Of a stretch of 64,000 nucleotides of DNA, positions 3,256 to 35,185 are shown in pieces. The stretch comes from Aotearoamyces nothofagi (lineage: Eukaryota > Ascomycota > Leotiomycetes > Leotiales > Tympanidaceae): positions 186,001-250,000 of the forward strand of contig JADDTR010000003.1 of NCBI GenBank assembly GCA_015345905.1, given 5' to 3'. Numbering within the stretch: the first letter of the stretch is position 1; each line of letters begins with the position of its first letter. Position numbers and translations under genes: made by a program. Under the pieces are notes generated by a model. The model was not told the origin of the DNA and ran no database searches. It worked only from the letters and a program-made list of their open reading frames with translations.

Positions 3256-6026
3256 ATGCAGGGCCGGCGTAACGATGCGTCAAGCAGACAGCCGCCCAAT
3301 CGACTACCCATAATAGCTCCTAGGCAAGCAAACGTGCCGTTTGAAGGCTACTCTGCTCCGCCAGTCTTGGCCAGTTCTACTTCAGAAACGACGAGGACGA
3401 GGCTACCGCCCCGGTCGAGAAGTGGCTGTTGGTAAGTTCAAGATGTCCACTCTGCTAGTTCTTCATACTGACATAGTGGTGTTGACAGGACATGTAGAAC
3501 AAGAAGTCAGCCACCCGCTTTTGGTATGAGAGAAAGCATGCTGACTTGGCATAGAAGTGAAATGTGATGAGCGGAGGCCAACATGCGGAGTAAGTTCGGC
3601 CATCCATTGGGAACGAATTTAAGAGGTTAACCAAGTTATAGCAGTGTGCTCGCCTTGGTCATGACTGGTGATTATTTCCCTACAAGTGTAAGAGATACGA
3701 AAAACTGACTTTGGTTGGGCGAATAGTGACTACAATCCAAGATTGGTATTCAGAGACGATACGCCGAGGGTCATAGAGCGAATGCAAGAAGTCAGGACAA
3801 GGGGAAACTCTGTATGGGACCGTACATTCGAGCAGGCGCCTAGACCCAGCATCGCTACTCATAGAATGATAGCGGGTACCCGAGAAGTCGACTATGGCAA
3901 TCCATCCATCCAAGATTCGCTACCGGCATTTTCAAGCCTGACTACCGACGAAGAACGGGAGATGAAAGCAGAATCACAAAGTCCCGGCACATACCTTGTG
4001 ATTGCGAATCAAAGCAGTTTTATAAGCCTGCCAGAATATTCCGAGGATGAGCAGCCGCAGACAAGTCCGAGTCTTTTAGCAGCTCGCCCTGAAGCCGCAT
4101 TCTACAAAGAAAGTCCAGATAGAAGTGTCAGCCCCCCAGAACCAGACCCAGAAGATCCCAACATCGTTATTCTCAAGACCTTTCGAGATACTTCGCGCCG
4201 GCCGTCACTAATCCCATCTCACCCTTCTAGAACAAGCCCAAAATATCCAGGTCCGCCAGCACTCCCATCGCCTCAACCCCGTTCAGCTACCTCTAGCGTT
4301 TCAGCTGGATCAAAAATCGAAGAAGCACGAAGTGGAGGCCGGGATTCCCAATTATTGCGACATTACCGGAGCTCCATATCTAAGACTGTCCTACAATTTG
4401 GACTTCCTGATACGGAGGAAGATATATTTGAGATCCAAGCTCGATCTTTCCCTCCTGTGAGTCTAAGTTCTTGCTAGAATCTTCGTCGTATGGCTATTAC
4501 TGGTGATAGAAAATTGAAATAATTCGATTTGTCAGTGTATGTAGCTCTGGCAGAGCTAGGATGGCCTGAGATCATTAATCCTATCATCAGTCAGCCGAAG
4601 ATTTTCTCGTGTGCTTTTCGTCAAGATTCTTGACCTCAAATTATAGACTAATGTATGACAGCTTTTTCATGCCATGATGGCGATTTCGGCGCTTAGTCTT
4701 GCTTGCCGCAATAGTATGCATCACGCCGATGCCCTGGAACACTACCAGCAGGTCATTCCAGAAATGAGAGATGCAATCCGGAGTGAAGAAGACTCCGTCT
4801 CCAATGGAGTACTATATACTCACTACCTACTTTTATTGTACGAGGTAAGTTCTGGTTCCTAAGTGCTATCCCGCAGCTTCCACTCAAATCTAGTGCTCGG
4901 CTTCTCATATAAAGTTATTCATCCAAAGTTGAGATGGGAGCTGGCCACATTTAATCTATGGCATCTGTTCCTGGCAGTTTATATTGAGATGATTCTAACG
5001 AAGTGCAGGTTGCCAATACTGGGACCTCGGTTTCGAATATGTGGCAAGCTCATTGTGACCGGCTTCTCTCAGTAATCACCCTTCGCCAACGAGCAAATCT
5101 CAGCGAGCCTTATGGATTTATCGTCTGGATGGTATGCATCGTTGATATATATGCACTGCTGAGTGGTAGTGGAACGGGCAATTTCGTGGAGACCGTCTTG
5201 AAGAACAACATGCTACCAGCCCATGGTGTACCACCTAGAGAGCCTGATCTCTCTGAATCATTCTCCCCTCTTGAACTACCCTACTTTTCCAGCTTGCAGG
5301 ATATCAATCAGCAGTTGATACTGCTTGCCATAGAGGTCGGAACAACGGCTCGAGATCTTAGAACAGAGTATCTCCAGCGTCAATATGAAGGTGGGGTAGC
5401 ACTTGGACACAACCATATCTATGCAACAAATAGGCAAGCTCGTGTCAGGCGCGTCCAGGGTCTTTGTCGTAATCAGTCCAATCTATGGGCGACAAAATAC
5501 TCTCATATCTGGCCAAGATACATAGGTTCGAGGCCATTGCCTCATAGAATCCTTGTCACTTTAGAACATGTAAGCACTCATTCGTCTAACCAAGTATTCT
5601 TACTAATGATACTAGGCCCAAGAACTTTACCGGGTCTGTGTGATATACGCTCACACAAGCATGTATCCGGGACACGCAGCGGAACACGCAGCAGAGTACA
5701 ACGCCGAAGTATCGACGTGTGCCACAGAAATCATCGAGATGGCGCAACGGGTCGTGGCAGATGAGAGGTGGGAGCTTCGGTCTCTTTCATTTGCATTGTT
5801 TCTCGCGGGTTTCGCGTCGAAGAACCTGGCAGAAAAGGGCATGGCACTTCACCTCATAAATGTTCTAGAACGGCATTGCTACGGGGGCAACACAAAAGCC
5901 TTGAAGGAGCTATTAGAAATGGTCTACCGCTGCCAACAGGAGGCTGCACAGGGTGGCCATCCATCAGTTGGATGGGTCGAGGAAATGAGAAAACGCGGCA
6001 TTAAACTCATTATGTTGGGCCTATAA
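3256..6026 (+). CDS. Zn(II)2Cys6 transcription factor (Fungal_trans_2 type)
   Basis: Predicted nuclear regulator of 712 residues. I join exons 3256-3431, 3489-3505, 3555-3589, 3642-3667, 3727-4456, 4662-4844, 5009-5569 and 5616-6026; all junction phases close. The spliced product has a perfect C-X2-C-X6-C-X6-C-X2-C-X6-C cluster at about residues 57-84 (GCWTCRTRK, VKCDERR, GQCARLGHDC), the canonical DNA-binding zinc cluster. The long C-terminal part (FPPLFHAMMAISAL, then helical segments to the end) fits the PF11951 regulatory domain. ATG 3256 follows an in-frame TGA at 3244. Four introns interrupt the zinc-cluster code, one exon being only 17 nt. The regulated genes are unknown and no metabolic cluster adjoins it. 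Family is fairly certain; the 205-nt intron before 4662 is the weakest junction. Confidence 0.88.
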
Positions 6027-24244: not shown

Positions 24245-24426
24245 GACAGTGTAGTGTAGTGCTGTACTGTACTGTACTGCCCTGTACTGTACTGCCCTGT
24301 ACTGTACTGCCCTGTACTGTACTGCCCTGTACTGTGAAGCCCTGTACTGCACTGTGAAGCCCTGTACTGCACTGTGAAGCCCTGAACCGCACTGTAAAGC
24401 CCTGTAAAGCCCTGTAAAGCCCTGCA
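24245..24426. repeat. CTGTACTG tandem-repeat block
   Basis: A 180-base block. It starts with GTACT units separated by GCCCT, passes through three ACTGTGAAGCCCTG units, and ends in GTAAAGCCCT 10-mers. Each variant forms its own sub-array. A shorter GGATACA/GATACAGG array lies at about 23995-24050. Confidence 0.88.
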
Positions 24427-24825
24427 CTGCCCTGTACCGGAGCCTAGAGCAGTCGGTGCCTGCTCTGCGACCGCGCCGTCCAGCGCTGTGCTGAGGTGGA
24501 TTCGGAGGCCGCTCATTGGAAACAGCGCATCCATCCACGGCGACGCGGCCGACCGGCCAACCACCACAGCCTGCCAGCCCCGCTACCGGCGACCAAGGCC
24601 CTGCCCGACATCCGCCGCAGCACTAAATGGCACCTACTACAGCAAGGGATAGGCACCCTCGGTAGGGTGCATTTGCCGTGTTTGGGATCGACGCGCAGCA
24701 GTTTGCGCGATCGTTCAAAATCTATTCATTGCCAGCGTCTTACCAGAGGCCACTTCAGCGGTGTAGTTGTTGCCACTCCTGCTGACTCCTGTCGACCCCG
24801 CCCAGCGACACCGACCAACGGGACA

Positions 24826-26155
24826 ATGAGGCTGTCTCTCTTCGCCGTCGCCCTTCTGGCCTGCTTCCTGACCGTGGTCGCCGCGTGGAGCAAAGAGGGT
24901 GCGTTTCGATCCCACACCTTTGATGCCCTCCAAACCTCCCGAATACTAACGCCTGGGTGCTAGACCATGAAATCTTTCGTCTGCGTGACGAGGTCGAGGC
25001 TTCCGAGGGCCCGGATGTTACTTTCTACGACTTCCTAGGCATCAAGCCCAATGCCAACCAAGAAGACATTGGCAAGGCCTACAAGAAAAGGTCGCGGAGT
25101 CTTCACCCCGACAAAGTAAAGCAGCAGTTCATTGCCGACAAATCCACCGGCAAGGGCAAAGCGAAGTCGAAGAAGCCAGGTGTCCACGTCTCCAAGGGTC
25201 CGACTCAAGCGGAAATCAAGGCTGCTGCCAAGGCTGCCAGTGATCGGTTTGCACGTTTGGGTCTGGTAACTGCCATCTTGCGCGGTGCCGACAGAGAGCG
25301 ATATGACCATTTTCTGAGGAATGGCTTCCCGAAGTGGAAGGGTACTGGGTACTACTATGCGCGATTCAGACCCGGTCTTGGTACCGTGCTCACTGGATTG
25401 TTCATCTTTGTCGGTGGAGGTGGTCACTACATTGCTCTGTACATGAGCTGGAAGAGGCAGCAGGAATTCGTGGGAAGATACATCAAGTTTGCCAGACGTG
25501 CGGCTTGGGGCGAAAACCTGGCTATACCTGGTCTCGAGAACACGGGCACATCTACTCCTCCAGCTGCCAATACGGACAGCGATGCGGAACCACATCAGCA
25601 ACCGCTGAACAGGAGACAAAGACGCATGCAAGAGAAGGATGCAAAGAAGGAGAAGCCAGAGAAAAAACCGAAAGGTTCAAAGACTGCTAAGATTTCCCCA
25701 GCTTCTACCCCTACCGGTGTTACAGGCCCTAAGAAGCGGGTTGTCGCTGAAAATGGGAAGGTACTCGTAGTCGACTCGGTTGGCAATGTATACTTGGAGC
25801 AAAAGGATGAGGAGGGCGAGACCCATGAATTTTTGCTTGATGTATGTAACAATGATTACACGTTGTGGAGACTTCTGCTAACAGAATATAGCTGAACGAA
25901 CTCCCTGTGCCAACAATTAAGGACACTGCTCTATACCGGATGCCCATTTGGGCGTTTGGCAAGATTGCTGGCCGATTTATCAAGAAGGATGAGAAAGAAG
26001 AGTCTGACATTGAAGATGAAGAAGGGGAAGTTGACGATGTCCAGGTTCAGGAAGAAGCAGAGGACTTTGAGGTTCTAGAGAAAGTCAAAACATCGGCGCC
26101 CAATGGTAACGGAAAGGCTGTCAAGCGTAACAAGAAGAGTGGTCGTGGTCGGTAG
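24826..26155 (+). CDS. ER membrane J-domain protein (ERdj1/DNAJC1-like)
   Basis: Predicted luminal Hsp70 (BiP/Kar2) co-chaperone of the ER membrane, 404 residues. Exons 24826-24898, 24964-25841 and 25892-26155 close in frame. A signal peptide (RLSLFAVALLACFLTVVAAW) is followed by DVTFYDFLGIKPNANQEDIGKAYKKRSRSLHPDK with the HPD triad, an Ala/Lys insertion inside the J domain, and FARLGLVTAILRGADRERYDHFLRNGFPKWKGTGYYY. A transmembrane span (VLTGLFIFVGGGGHYIALYM) then leads to a lysine-rich cytosolic segment. After a basic linker come a conserved ELPVPTIKDTALYRMPIW block and an acidic then basic tail (KRNKKSGRGR). The family usually has this signal-J-TM-cytosolic order. The yeast counterpart is uncertain, so no symbol is given. 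Confidence 0.9.
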
Positions 26156-29584: not shown

Positions 29585-30623
29585 ATGGTAAGCTCTAGAC
29601 AGTCCCATCTCGTCTCTGAAGCCATGATAGCCACCCTGCATACCGTCAGTAACTGACCTTGTCTTGCTGTAGACGTCAATAGGTACCGGTTACGATCTTC
29701 AGAACTCTGTTTTCTCTCCAGATGGCAGGAATTTCCAAGTCGAATATGCGATGAAGGCAGTTGAGAATGGAGGTACCTCAGTGGGCATACGGTGTAAAGA
29801 TGGCGTCGTCCTCGCTGTTGAGAAGCTAGTCACCAGCAAACTGCTGAAACCAAACGCCAACAAGCGCATTGCTACTATCGACAGACATATTGGCGCAGTA
29901 TGTATATCCCAGAATGATGCGATGGAACTGTATTTCTAATAGTGTATCCTTCAGGTATCATCAGGGCTTGTACCTGACGGCCGACATTTCACCTCCCGAG
30001 CACGCGACGAGGCAGCATCGTGGCGTCAAGTCTACAAGACACCAATCACTACTGCAGATCTCGCTAGCAGAATGGGTGGCTATCTGCAAGCTTATACACT
30101 ATATTCATCTGTACGACCTTTCGGTATCACCGCTATTGTAGCAGGCTGGGATTCAGAGGTCGAGCTGAATATTGATGGTCAGGTTGGTAGCGGACCCCAA
30201 GCTGGTGCGGGAGGCAAGTCGAAAGATAAGACATATGGTGGCCCAGGTCTTTTCATGATCGAGCCGAGTGGACAGTACTGGGGCTACTATGGTGCTGCAA
30301 CTGGTAAGGGTAGACAAAGTGCGAAGGCAGAGCTAGAGAAGTTGGACTTGGCAGCTGGAACTCTAAGTTTGAAGGAAGGGGTCATGGAAGCTGCGCGGAT
30401 TATCTACGTTGCACATGATGAGAACAAAGATAAGGATTTCGAGCTGGAGATGACATGGATCAGTGATTTCGACGGACCGACAAAGGGACGGCACGAAGAA
30501 GTACCCAAGGAACTTCTCGAGGAGGCCGAGAAAGCAGCCAAGATTGCATTAGAGGGTGAAGATGACGAGGATGAAAAGAAGGACGACGATAAGCCGGCGG
30601 AGGATGATAAGATGGAGGAATAA
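29585..30623 (+). CDS. PRE10: 20S proteasome subunit alpha-7 (Pre10/PSMA3)
   Basis: Outer-ring alpha subunit of the 20S proteasome, 298 residues. Exon 1 is the start codon alone (29585-29587), followed by a GT-AG intron and exons 29673-29897 and 29955-30623. The spliced N-terminus [30 protein letters not shown] is diagnostic: the alpha signature gives YD...FSPDGR...QVEYA, and the subunit-specific features are [24 protein letters not shown] and [56 protein letters not shown] and KDFELEM complete the fold. The extra segment [19 protein letters not shown] is a loop insertion relative to yeast. The acidic Asp/Glu/Lys tail is typical of this subunit. Without the one-codon exon no ATG precedes TSIGTGYD, so the model rests on that splice. 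Confidence 0.96.
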
Positions 30624-31212: not shown

Positions 31213-32058
31213 TTATAGGCTCGCAAGAGCTTCGGCAGCAGCGCCAGCAAGAGCATTTGCATCGCGCTTGGCCTTGGAGCAAGGTTCGCCGACACGGTGG
31301 CAAAAAGCCTCAGCCTCAGCCGTTGGATCGCGCTTGGCCTTGGAGCAAGGTTCGCCCACTCGGTGGCAGAAGGCCTCAGCGTCGCGCTTGGCCTTAGAGC
31401 AGGGCTCACCAACACGGTGACAGAATGGCTGAGGGGCAGGTATGGGCGCAGAGAAGGCTTCAGCGACAGCCTCAGCTGCACGCTTGACCTTCGAGCACGG
31501 CTCACCGACACGATGGCAGAAGGCCTCAGCGTCACGCTTGAGCTTGGAACATGGCTCTCCTACACGATGGCAGAATGCCTCGGCGTCTGAGAAACTGGTG
31601 TCAGCTTGCGTCTCATTAGATACATGTGATGGGATAGATATAGACTTACCAGCGTCGGCAGCCGCTTCAGGCTCGGGGAAAGCAGAGCGCAAGCTAAGAG
31701 CTTCATAGTAGGCTACTGGGTTTGGCTGGGCCTCAGCAACGGCAGCTGCCAAAGCATCTGCGGCACGCTTTGCTTTGGAACAGGGCTCACCGACTCGGTG
31801 ACAGAAAGCCTCCGCGTTGGCATTAGCATTAGCGTTGGCCTTTGGCTCAGCAAAAGCCTCAGCGACGGCCTCTGCTGCACGCTTGATCTTCGAACAAGGT
31901 TCGCCGACACGGTGGCAGAAAGCTTCGGCTTCGGCAGTACGCCTGACTTTGGAACAAGGCTCACCAACGCGATGGCAGAAAGGGTCCGCATCAGGGACGG
32001 CAGCGGCTTTAACGGTGACTGCTAGAATAATGACACAAAGTGCAGAGGTAAGCTTCAT
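31213..32058 (-). CDS. alpha-type mating pheromone precursor, eight copies of FCHRVGEPCSK
   Basis: Secreted peptide-pheromone precursor, 260 residues after splicing exons 32058-31650 and 31586-31213. A signal peptide (MKLTSALCVIILAVTVKA) precedes eight identical cores FCHRVGEPCSK, each followed by one variable aliphatic residue and a Kex2 site (KR seven times, RR once). The spacers are almost wholly X-Ala/X-Pro dipeptides, the substrate of Ste13-type dipeptidyl aminopeptidase, always in register with the following Phe. This is the yeast/filamentous MF-alpha architecture. The core has the two-Cys, central-Gly plan of Pezizomycotina alpha-pheromones, but with Phe for the usual first Trp and Glu where Gln is common. 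Copies differ at many synonymous sites but not in peptide. The 63-nt intron is in frame and stop-free, so unspliced reading also stays open (281 residues) but loses dipeptide register. Class certain, name of orthologue not assigned. Confidence 0.95.
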   Translation of the reverse strand: MKLTSALCVIILAVTVKAAAVPDADPFCHRVGEPCSKVRRTAEAEAFCHRVGEPCSKIKRAAEAVAEAFAEPKANANANANAEAFCHRVGEPCSKAKRAADALAAAVAEAQPNPVAYYEALSLRSAFPEPEAAADAGKSISIPSHVSNETQADTSFSDAEAFCHRVGEPCSKLKRDAEAFCHRVGEPCSKVKRAAEAVAEAFSAPIPAPQPFCHRVGEPCSKAKRDAEAFCHRVGEPCSKAKRDPTAEAEAFCHRVGEPCSKAKRDANALAGAAAEALASL

Positions 32059-33857
32059 GATGATTGATTGGTTTGATGAAGGTTATGTGTGGGAGTGTAA
32101 GGGCACTTGCACACTGCGGTATTGAGGTTTGATTTGTGGAGATGATGGTAAGATCGTCTGAAGGAATGGTGCAATGAGAAAGAAATCTGTTGATAGAGGA
32201 AGTTGAGCTGCTTATATACATAAAACAAAGCTGTTCACTGTGGTAGAGTCCTATAGCCAAAAGACTAGATGGTTGTCAATGAAACGAATAGGGCCAATAA
32301 GAAATCCTCAATAGGAGGGGAAAGGACCCCTGACTGCTAGCAGCCACAAAGAATATACGAGAGCGACTGTCAATAGTAAAGTCGTCGAGAAGACACCAAA
32401 GAATTATTTGAAACATTTTTGGAAGTTGCGGCAATACCTACTCAGTTGTAGAGGCAGGGTTGAGTCGGTAGTTAAAGACAATTATCATGGCAGACGAACT
32501 CTTCAACTCCACTTCTATTGATGAAACGAAAACTGACCGCACAGACTTAGCTATTATGCATCAATATTCCATCTCCCTTTAAACATTTCCTTAAAACCGA
32601 AGTCAATGCCATTGCAGAAGTCTTGGCCGTCTACTGCCATGGACCAGGGATTAGATGTCATCAGGAGGCGAGCATGATTCAAATCCCACACATCTCTGGG
32701 ACATCAAAGAATAAACAGTCGAAGCCGGAGATTCCGATAAAGATCTGCATCTGCCTGTCTTTCTTTACGAACATTCTCGTCGTCGTCCGTGGTTGCGCCA
32801 GTCCATATCTTATTCAGAGCCTCATTAGGAATGTCTTTGAAAATAAGCGATACCTCCGAATTTGATAACACTCCAGCCAGAGACCCTCGACAACGCAACA
32901 TCGCAATGAAAGAATATGGACAAGAACAAGCAATTATCGCTGTCTAAGGAATTGAAAGTCTCTGAAGAGAATCAACTGGCTTGAGACACCGGCCCAAATA
33001 ACGACCAGATAACCAAGGAACCCAGACGCGCAGCCATAGATATCCCAACTAAACAGTTGAGGAAAGTTTGATTCTCTGGCTTAATGATAATAGGTGGACC
33101 TTTTCGTGCCCAAACCACATTGGTGATGTTGTGACGCTTCTCGTTTTGGGGATGTTATGGGCAAACAGCCATTTCCCTCCGCTACAAAGTGAATGCCGAG
33201 TAAAAAAATGACGGGCCTTTTAAGCATCTCACTAGCAAACAGCAACACCACAGCCACTACCGACTATTGAACACTGGTAAAGAGCTTTTGCGGCTTAATC
33301 TAGCAGAAGGTGCTACGGGAAAGGGAATGATTTAGAAACAAGTGAATTGAAACCAGATTACCCAAATGCTGTTAAAACGGTCCTCAGATGCCTCCAGATA
33401 TATATGACTGGAGAGCCAGCCCTGTGCTTGACCTGAACCGAGGAGTGGCTGATGGCTATGGCTCATGTTTGCCCTGGAGAGAACATAGGGATGTGAACGA
33501 GACTTAAAGGAAGAGAGCTGTAGAATATATGTAGCCGTTAAGTGGACGAAGCTCACAGAGACAATCCCAGAGACTGTCTTCGGAGAAGAAAAAGAAGAGA
33601 GGACGTCAAATCTTTGACCCACCCTTTATCTCGTGCGCCGGCGATGCTTTAACCTTGAGGTATTTGGCTTTCGGTGGTTGTCTGGCAATCAGCCACGGCA
33701 ATGCCTGGATATCACCTTCCGGCCCTCCGCCTTCGGCTTCGCTGTAACGGGAAGCCTAAGCGACCAGCGAAAGCGGGTATTACCTTGCCTTCGGATGCTG
33801 GACAATCTGCCTTCAAATTCCATCACCTACAACGTTCTCTCTCATATCTTATTAACC
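32059..33857. other. divergent intergenic region, no firm gene
   Basis: Contains the promoters of the pheromone gene (minus) and IDH1 (plus). A 65-codon minus-strand frame at 32704-32901 (NEALNKIWTGATTDD) weakly recalls an EH-domain helix but has no supporting context and I do not call it. Nothing else is supported. Confidence 0.5.
32211..32222 (-). promoter_or_regulatory. TATA-like box of the pheromone gene
   Basis: Reads TATGTATATAAG on the minus strand, about 155 bases upstream of the pheromone start codon. The only TATA-type element noted close to this gene; position and strand fit a strong inducible promoter. Confidence 0.5.
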
Positions 33858-35185
33858 ATGGCGATGAGGGGCTCACTATCACGGTCGGCACAGGTAAGAT
33901 TTCCTGATTCCACTCTTGCCCGTGCCCTTAATGGACCTCAATGGCTAGAGATGCATCCGCTAACCTCGGCTTGTTATCAGAACATTCTGCGAACCGCCCA
34001 AGCTCCGTCCCGAGGCTTCGCAACAGTGCAATCGGGTAGCTAAAACCATTACCACTTGACGTGACCTTGAGAGCTGATTCCTATCTCAGATATCTTTAAG
34101 CCAACAAAGTATGGGGGCAAGTACACAGTGACCCTCATTCCGGGCGATGGTATCGGTGCCGAAGTCGCGGAATCCGTCAAGACCGTTTTCAAGGCCGACA
34201 ATGTTCCAATAGAGTGGGAACAAGTCGACGTGTCTGGTCTTGAGACTGGGAACAAACAGTCGGAGGAGCTCTTCCGCGAGTCAATTGCTTCCCTCAAGCG
34301 CAATAAGCTTGGTCTAAAGGGTATCCTTCACACCCCTGTCGAGCGCTCCGGCCACCAATCTTTCAACGTCGCACTTAGACAAGAGCTGGACATCTATGCT
34401 TCCATCGTTCTGATCAAGAACATTCCCGGCTACAAGACCCGACACGATAACGTTGACCTGTGCATTATCCGCGAGAACACCGAGGGTGAATACTCAGGTC
34501 TTGAGCATCAATCTGTTCCTGGTGTTGTCGAGTCCCTCAAAATCATTACCCGTGCCAAATCCGAGCGCATCGCAAAGTTTGCTTTCAGCTTCGCACTGGC
34601 CAACAACCGCAAGAAGGTTACCTGTATTCACAAGGCTAACATCATGAAGCTTGCTGACGGTCTGTTCCGCAATACCTTTAACGCAGTCGCCAAGGAATTC
34701 CCAACCCTGGAGACAAATGATATGATTGTCGACAATGCCTCCATGCAATGTGTTTCGCGTCCTCAGCAGTTTGATGTCATGGTCATGCCCAACTTGTACG
34801 GAGGTATCTTGTCCAACGTCGGTGCTGCTCTTGTTGGTGGACCAGGTATTGTGCCAGGTTGCAACATGGGCCGTGATGTTGCGGTGTTTGAGCCTGGTTG
34901 CCGACACGTCGGTCTCGATATCAAGGGCAAGGATCAAGCGAACCCAACTGCGATGTTACTGTCTGGTGCTATGCTTTTGAGGCATCTTGGTCTTGATGAA
35001 CATGCTAACCGAATCTCCAAATCGGTTTATGATGTTATCGCTGATGGGTTAGTTGTTTCTTTATGTTCTTTAATAACATTCTAACATATCTATGTAGTGC
35101 TGTTCGAACACGAGATATGGGCGGCAACAACTCTACCCACCAGTTTACACGGGCAGTTTTGGATAAGATGGAGGCTGCATTCTAG
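33858..35185 (+). CDS. IDH1: mitochondrial NAD-dependent isocitrate dehydrogenase, subunit 1
   Basis: Regulatory subunit of the TCA-cycle enzyme that oxidises isocitrate to 2-oxoglutarate, 378 residues. Exons 33858-33893, 33981-34035, 34090-35047 and 35098-35185 close in frame. The short Arg/Ser-rich N-terminus (MAMRGSLSRSAQNILRTAQAPSRGFATVQS) fits a mitochondrial presequence. Family marks: YTVTLIPGDGIGAEV, LIKNIPGYKTRHDNVDLCIIRENTEGEYSGLEHQ (split here), KVTCIHKANIMKLADGLF, DNASMQCVSRPQQFDVMVMPNLYGGILSNV, and AALVGGPGIVPGCNMG. The SRPQQFD segment replaces the catalytic-subunit pattern, which with the CNMG end points to subunit 1 rather than IDH2. The last exon gives AVRTRDMGGNNST, the usual C-terminus. 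Confidence 0.96.

Follow-up and report, generated by a model that had tools for sequence, protein, structure and literature searches.

What does a gene make that repeats one short cysteine-containing peptide eight times, and which part of the repeat is likely to be released? The question is raised by a minus-strand gene at positions 31213-32058 of the window, the whole 64,000-nucleotide stretch of Aotearoamyces nothofagi DNA analyzed here, which lies on contig C3 of the genome that we searched (25.5 Mb, 55 contigs). A sequence-only reading had named the gene an alpha-pheromone precursor, and the repeated cores, the Kex2 sites and an X-Ala/X-Pro register in the spacers support that identity. 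We regard it as very likely that the gene is the prepro-alpha-pheromone of a filamentous ascomycete, processed as proposed below and sensed by a Ste2 receptor.

The frame at 31213-32058 holds the peptide FCHRVGEPCSK in eight identical copies (8/8), set between Kex2 sites as that reading had reported. Every core carries Cys2, Gly6 and Cys9, that is, two cysteines spaced Cys-X6-Cys around a central glycine, and every core is followed by a Kex2 site (KR or RR). In order of translation on the minus strand, the copies lie at 31948-31980 (followed by VRR), 31888-31920 (IKR), 31774-31806 (AKR), 31543-31575 (LKR), 31489-31521 (VKR), 31393-31425 (AKR), 31339-31371 (AKR) and 31273-31305 (AKR), so that the sequence after Cys-Ser reads KVRR, KIKR, KAKR, KLKR, KVKR, KAKR, KAKR and KAKR in copies 1 to 8. 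Upstream of the first core, the precursor begins with MKLTSALCVIILAVTVKA, which is hydrophobic as judged by eye, and a probable signal peptide, MKLTSALCVIILAVTVKAA, occupies 32002-32058 of the minus strand (boundary likewise set by eye).

Beneath the invariant peptide, the DNA of the copies has diverged. The third base varies among copies in 11 of the 11 core codons (11 polymorphic columns), and the eight copies are separated by at least 18 changes, all of them synonymous. A random change in the core would be synonymous with a chance of 0.21, or 0.27 when transitions are weighted fourfold, and 18 synonymous changes out of 18 are then expected with p ~1e-12 (8e-11 with the weighting); because the changes are all silent against such a background, the core peptide is held by selection, as had been proposed. 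The accompanying claim that the likeness of the copies does not reflect recent copying stands only in part. Of the copy pairs, 25 differ at 5-8 of 33 core positions, every difference being silent. Copies 2, 7 and 8, however, seem to have been copied recently: the three pairs among them differ at only 3-4 of 33 positions, 30 nucleotides are identical between copies 7 and 8, and 23 between copies 8 and 2. (Longer stretches shared by pairs 1-2, 4-5 and 6-7 were left out, since their neighbourhoods overlap.) These differences and shared stretches together argue for an older divergence under purifying selection combined with some recent copying or conversion.

The frame is very probably not continuous, a point that the sequence-only reading had missed. 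Unspliced, it comprises 281 codons; a predicted intron of 63 nucleotides at 31587-31649 (minus strand) reduces the protein to 260 amino acids. The intron begins with GTAAGT and ends with CAG, has a branch-point-like CTGAC element 18 nucleotides from its end, and is poorer in GC than the exons (41% vs 59%). Its length is a multiple of three and it contains no in-frame stop, and the frame therefore reads straight through it when no tools are applied. The evidence for the intron comes from the fourth spacer: unspliced, it is 63 residues long, an odd number, with X-Ala or X-Pro in 5 of 31 dipeptides, whereas spliced it is 42 residues long, an even number, with such dipeptides in 18 of 21. Because excision restores the even register, the stretch is very probably an intron. 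Introns with GT-AG boundaries have a precedent in the alpha-pheromone gene of Paracoccidioides (PMC3464258).

With this intron removed, all seven spacers between copies, measured from the Kex2 cut to the phenylalanine, are even in length. Counted back from the phenylalanine, 49 of their 53 dipeptides (92%) are X-Ala or X-Pro, four being of other kinds; the other register gives 9%, and shuffled spacers give 53% on average and reached the observed value in none of 10,000 trials. The residue before the core is alanine or proline in 8/8 copies. The count covers the inter-copy spacers; the segment that joins the signal peptide to copy 1, whose start is uncertain (from an arbitrary start it is 9 residues long, an odd number), has X-Ala or X-Pro in all four of its core-adjacent dipeptides. 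Since such a register is the signature of trimming by a Ste13 dipeptidyl aminopeptidase, phenylalanine is the probable mature N terminus. On the proposed route, the signal peptide would bring the precursor into the secretory pathway, Kex2 would cleave after every KxKR or KxRR, a Ste13-type dipeptidyl aminopeptidase would strip the X-Ala/X-Pro dipeptides and stop at Phe-Cys, and the basic tail would be taken off by carboxypeptidase trimming. A point against this route is that it has to assume a trimming step for position 12, just before the dibasic pair, which is V in copies 1 and 5, I in copy 2, L in copy 4 and A in copies 3, 6, 7 and 8. The outcome would be a single peptide, most likely FCHRVGEPCS, released eight times from every precursor.

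The dipeptide register also bears on whether the gene makes a pheromone at all. Ribosomal natural products of the ustiloxin or phomopsin kind arise from Kex2-processed repeats that are converted to modified cyclic peptides, and their precursors share the layout predicted here, with a signal peptide, repeats and Kex2 sites; proteins so built are common in fungi (PMC7329392). However, no Ste13 processing is predicted for ustiloxin-type precursors (PMC6339444), whereas the X-Ala/X-Pro register of the present gene is an alpha-pheromone signature. Moreover, the core contains no tyrosine, and the genome search reported a single UstYa/DUF3328 match, which is on C4, whereas the precursor gene is on C3. 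With the match off the window's contig and no tyrosine in the core, we rejected a natural-product origin, which we consider highly improbable.

Against the pheromone reading, Pfam gave six matches to the protein, every one under its cut-off, and no alpha-pheromone family above threshold. One of the six, PknG_rubred (E 0.17), also belongs to the profiles given for pheromone type G-2, a type listed for 35 genera including Escovopsis and Trichoderma (PMC7329392); this overlap is weak evidence. A search of solved structures returned no match up to E 10, and at the same limit no second precursor gene of this kind was reported in the genome.

The C terminus of the peptide is a separate question. The sequence-only reading had taken the invariant 11 residues as the unit, but Lys11 begins the KxKR/KxRR Kex2 site, so the 11-mer is probably not the mature form and the 10-mer FCHRVGEPCS is more likely. 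Could the peptide nonetheless be longer, either FCHRVGEPCSK or a set of 12-mers ending in a further V, I, A or L? Lys11 is invariant in 8/8 copies even though its third base varies, and Kex2 cleavage followed by Kex1 trimming of the dibasic pair alone would leave 12-mers. Position 12, however, is not constant, being V, I, A or L according to the copy, as fits a spacer and not the end of a ligand, and Lys11 would occupy P4 relative to the Kex2 cleavage, a position at which basic residues are preferred. Published motifs point both ways: that of Xylona heveae is printed as RFCHLPGQGCSK (PMC6339444), and the Trichoderma reesei peptide is called 11 amino acids long yet printed with 10 letters (PMC3068285), but the Fusarium pheromones are decapeptides, the length of FCHRVGEPCS (PMC7289986, PMC10057649). 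We view a longer peptide, which would be a variant of the pheromone reading, as rather unlikely and continue with the decapeptide.

If the decapeptide is an alpha-pheromone, the genome should be able to process and perceive it. The Ste2-type receptor that the sequence-only reading had suggested looking for is present on contig C6, in two exons encoding 406 amino acids when spliced; it matches the Pfam STE2 profile over positions 1-279 of 280 (E 2.2e-101), and its residues 17-299 align with the solved yeast Ste2 (E 1e-21). We propose that this receptor senses the released peptide, in mating or in hyphal chemotropism. Both proteases have candidates. Kex2 is represented on C1 by S8 and P domains spread over three frames at one locus, where a stop coincides with the frame switch in the P domain (profile positions 1-56, then 55-86), a pattern that fits an intron. 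A Ste13-type peptidase is encoded on C2 by a single frame of 917 amino acids with DPPIV_N (E 3e-118) and S9 domains. The genome search also found Ste3 on C13. A search for an hpp1-like a-type pheromone with the pattern GGNTGYWSNGTNATGTRR gave four matches vs none for the reversed-pattern control, and none was accepted because the frames are only 11-21 residues long and lack a second copy of the motif (both strands read); this pattern search of the genome thus yielded no convincing a-type partner.

Whether such a peptide serves mating in the first place is a separate matter. In Fusarium oxysporum, alpha-pheromone regulates growth and serves both as a chemoattractant and as a quorum signal (PMC7289986). 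The present peptide might likewise act mainly in germination, chemotropism or quorum sensing, its part in mating having become secondary or been lost. The mating-type region leaves some room for such a role, which is compatible with an alpha-pheromone identity. A MAT-like locus on C10 comprises an I/LWEQ-ANTH protein, an alpha-box-like fragment, an HMG-box gene, an endonuclease/exonuclease-family protein and APC5. The first and fourth of these we take to be SLA2 and APN2, and the HMG-box gene is presumably MAT1-2-1; the order SLA2, MAT, APN2 is the one expected at a MAT locus. The HMG-box gene is split in two frames, with E-values of 1.3e-6 and 8.6e-4 apart and 5.2e-17 joined, although HMG boxes are not specific, there being 10 matches in the genome. 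The alpha-box-like fragment (C10:362392-362592; about 5392-5592 of locus L016, minus strand) covers positions 101-167 of 194 with an E-value of 1.3e-4; it scores 25 bits, below the cut-off of 28.1, and is interrupted by one internal stop. It may be what is left of MAT1-1-1 in a MAT1-2 locus, or it may point to homothallism in the past. This stop-interrupted fragment beside the HMG-box gene makes the mating system somewhat ambiguous. Against a mainly non-mating role stands the retention of mating machinery, namely Ste2, Ste3 and the HMG-box gene at the MAT-like locus, and we judge such a role unlikely.

Two further features of the C10 locus may be recorded. The interval that separates the alpha-box-like fragment from the HMG-box gene contains an apparently multi-exon gene (about 6531-7547 of L016, minus strand). 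A MAT1-1-2-like identity was considered for the frames there; the two pieces compared with Pfam gave no match. The putative MAT1-2-1 frame (8273-8977 of L016, plus strand) carries tandem Asn-Gly-Pro-Ala/Val-type repeats (NGPAANGPVA...) ahead of its HMG box.

How unusual, then, is the peptide? Its Phe-Cys start and Gly-Glu pair had been singled out as atypical, but published motifs provide precedents for both in X. heveae RFCHLPGQGCSK (PMC6339444) and T. reesei WCYRIGEPCW (PMC3068285). T. reesei PPG1, of 286 amino acids, resembles the present precursor in its length, repeats, Kex2 sites, Gly-Glu-Pro-Cys and, probably, signal peptide, and its peptide equals FCHRVGEPCS at 6 of 10 positions by eye; it differs in having Trp1 and Trp10 where Phe and Ser stand here, and four copies instead of eight (PMC3068285). 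The X. heveae candidate, from a Xylonomycete, shares the Phe-Cys-His start and Cys-Ser-Lys end; compared by eye, FCHLPGQGCSK equals FCHRVGEPCSK at 7 of 11 positions, the differences being Leu-Pro-Gly-Gln-Gly in place of Arg-Val-Gly-Glu-Pro and an extra Arg in front (PMC6339444). The two are thus about equally close to the new core. The Fusarium peptides WCTWRGQPCW and WCTWKGQPCW are also decapeptides with Cys2, Cys9, a central Gly and Pro8, released from precursors with Kex2 and X-Ala/X-Pro signals and 11 near-identical repeats, but they have Gly-Gln and terminal Trp residues, and their position 3 varies where ours is invariant (PMC7289986, PMC7329813, PMC10057649).

Eight copies had likewise been thought to be at the high end. 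Published counts are 1-16 with a mean of 5 (cited in PMC6339444), 11 in Fusarium (PMC10057649), and 1-13 in Ceratocystidaceae (PMC13037118), and within the Leotiomycetes Botrytis fragariae reaches 18 (PMC10569646); eight is above average, within the published 1 to 18, and not extreme. The eight-copy repeat also fits the range of 9-14 residues given for mature alpha-type pheromones (PMC10569646).

What sets the peptide apart is its ends. Compared with the consensus WCXXGXXCW (PMC3068285), the core lacks both terminal tryptophans, having Phe1 and Ser10, which counts against the pheromone reading. Other motifs also depart from the terminal Trp, for instance RCGHPGQPCG and CKYVGQGCW (PMC10569646) and RFCHLPGQGCSK (PMC6339444), and the Trp pair is not required in the wider alpha-pheromone family. 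As to whether the core had already been described, a search of the main texts of 5.39 million papers found no FCHRVGEPC, and the single match to RVGEPC was a paper on human NOTCH3, which is unrelated; the peptide may be annotated in sequence databases or supplementary tables, which lay outside that search. The architecture is that of a textbook filamentous-ascomycete precursor, and the new element is the peptide sequence, notable for lacking both terminal Trp.

The missing Trp10 has a possible consequence for the receptor. Molecular dynamics of the F. oxysporum receptor, in which Arg84 and Arg187 are among the residues treated, gives an anchoring role to Trp10, which in the model sits at the base of the binding pocket, and a variant library, WCXXXGQPCW, kept both Trp fixed (PMC12582325). 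A serine, or Ser-Lys, in place of Trp10 predicts that the Ste2 pocket differs and that cross-talk with relatives may be absent. It is conceivable that the lineage lost both terminal Trp (Phe replacing Trp1, Ser replacing Trp10), that the Ste2 pocket changed with them, and that the peptide does not activate the receptors of relatives; we offer this scenario tentatively and would sooner expect it to fail than to hold. Its Trp-bearing ancestor is an assumption, since the X. heveae motif is as close to the core as the Trichoderma one. If true, it would show cleanly how a pheromone and its receptor diverge together and isolate a lineage in mating. A natural pheromone without terminal Trp would also be a useful test of the residues that Ste2 receptors need. 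Otherwise the result is modest: one more peptide-receptor pair for a well-known system, with precursor and Ste2 from one genome.

The region upstream of the gene holds three TGAAACR sites between 32280 and 32528 (starts at 32280, 32409 and 32522; no strand assigned), 228-470 nucleotides from the ATG. Three in 1 kb compare with 0.40 expected and occur in 0.6% of Markov resamples, a figure to be read with the degenerate form having been picked post hoc. TGAAACA, the exact form of the yeast element, is present a single time, an unremarkable count (25% of Markov resamples). Three pheromone response elements have been reported for T. reesei ppg1 (PMC3068285), and the sites upstream of the present gene are only a weak lead to such elements.

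Among the frames of the window covered by the Pfam comparison (10 of the larger ones), the nearest with matches are a proteasome subunit (29943-30623, plus strand) on one side of the pheromone gene and an isocitrate/isopropylmalate dehydrogenase (34071-35084, plus strand) on the other, and these housekeeping neighbours are possible synteny markers. Elsewhere in the window, a plus-strand frame at 53995-54882 matches Pfam CAP (E 2.4e-17), its CAP/PR-1-like product being hydrophobic towards the N terminus, and dense short tandem arrays based on CTGTA, with periods of 5, 10, 15 and 20, fill 24262-24436 near a DnaJ-domain frame at 24924-25895.
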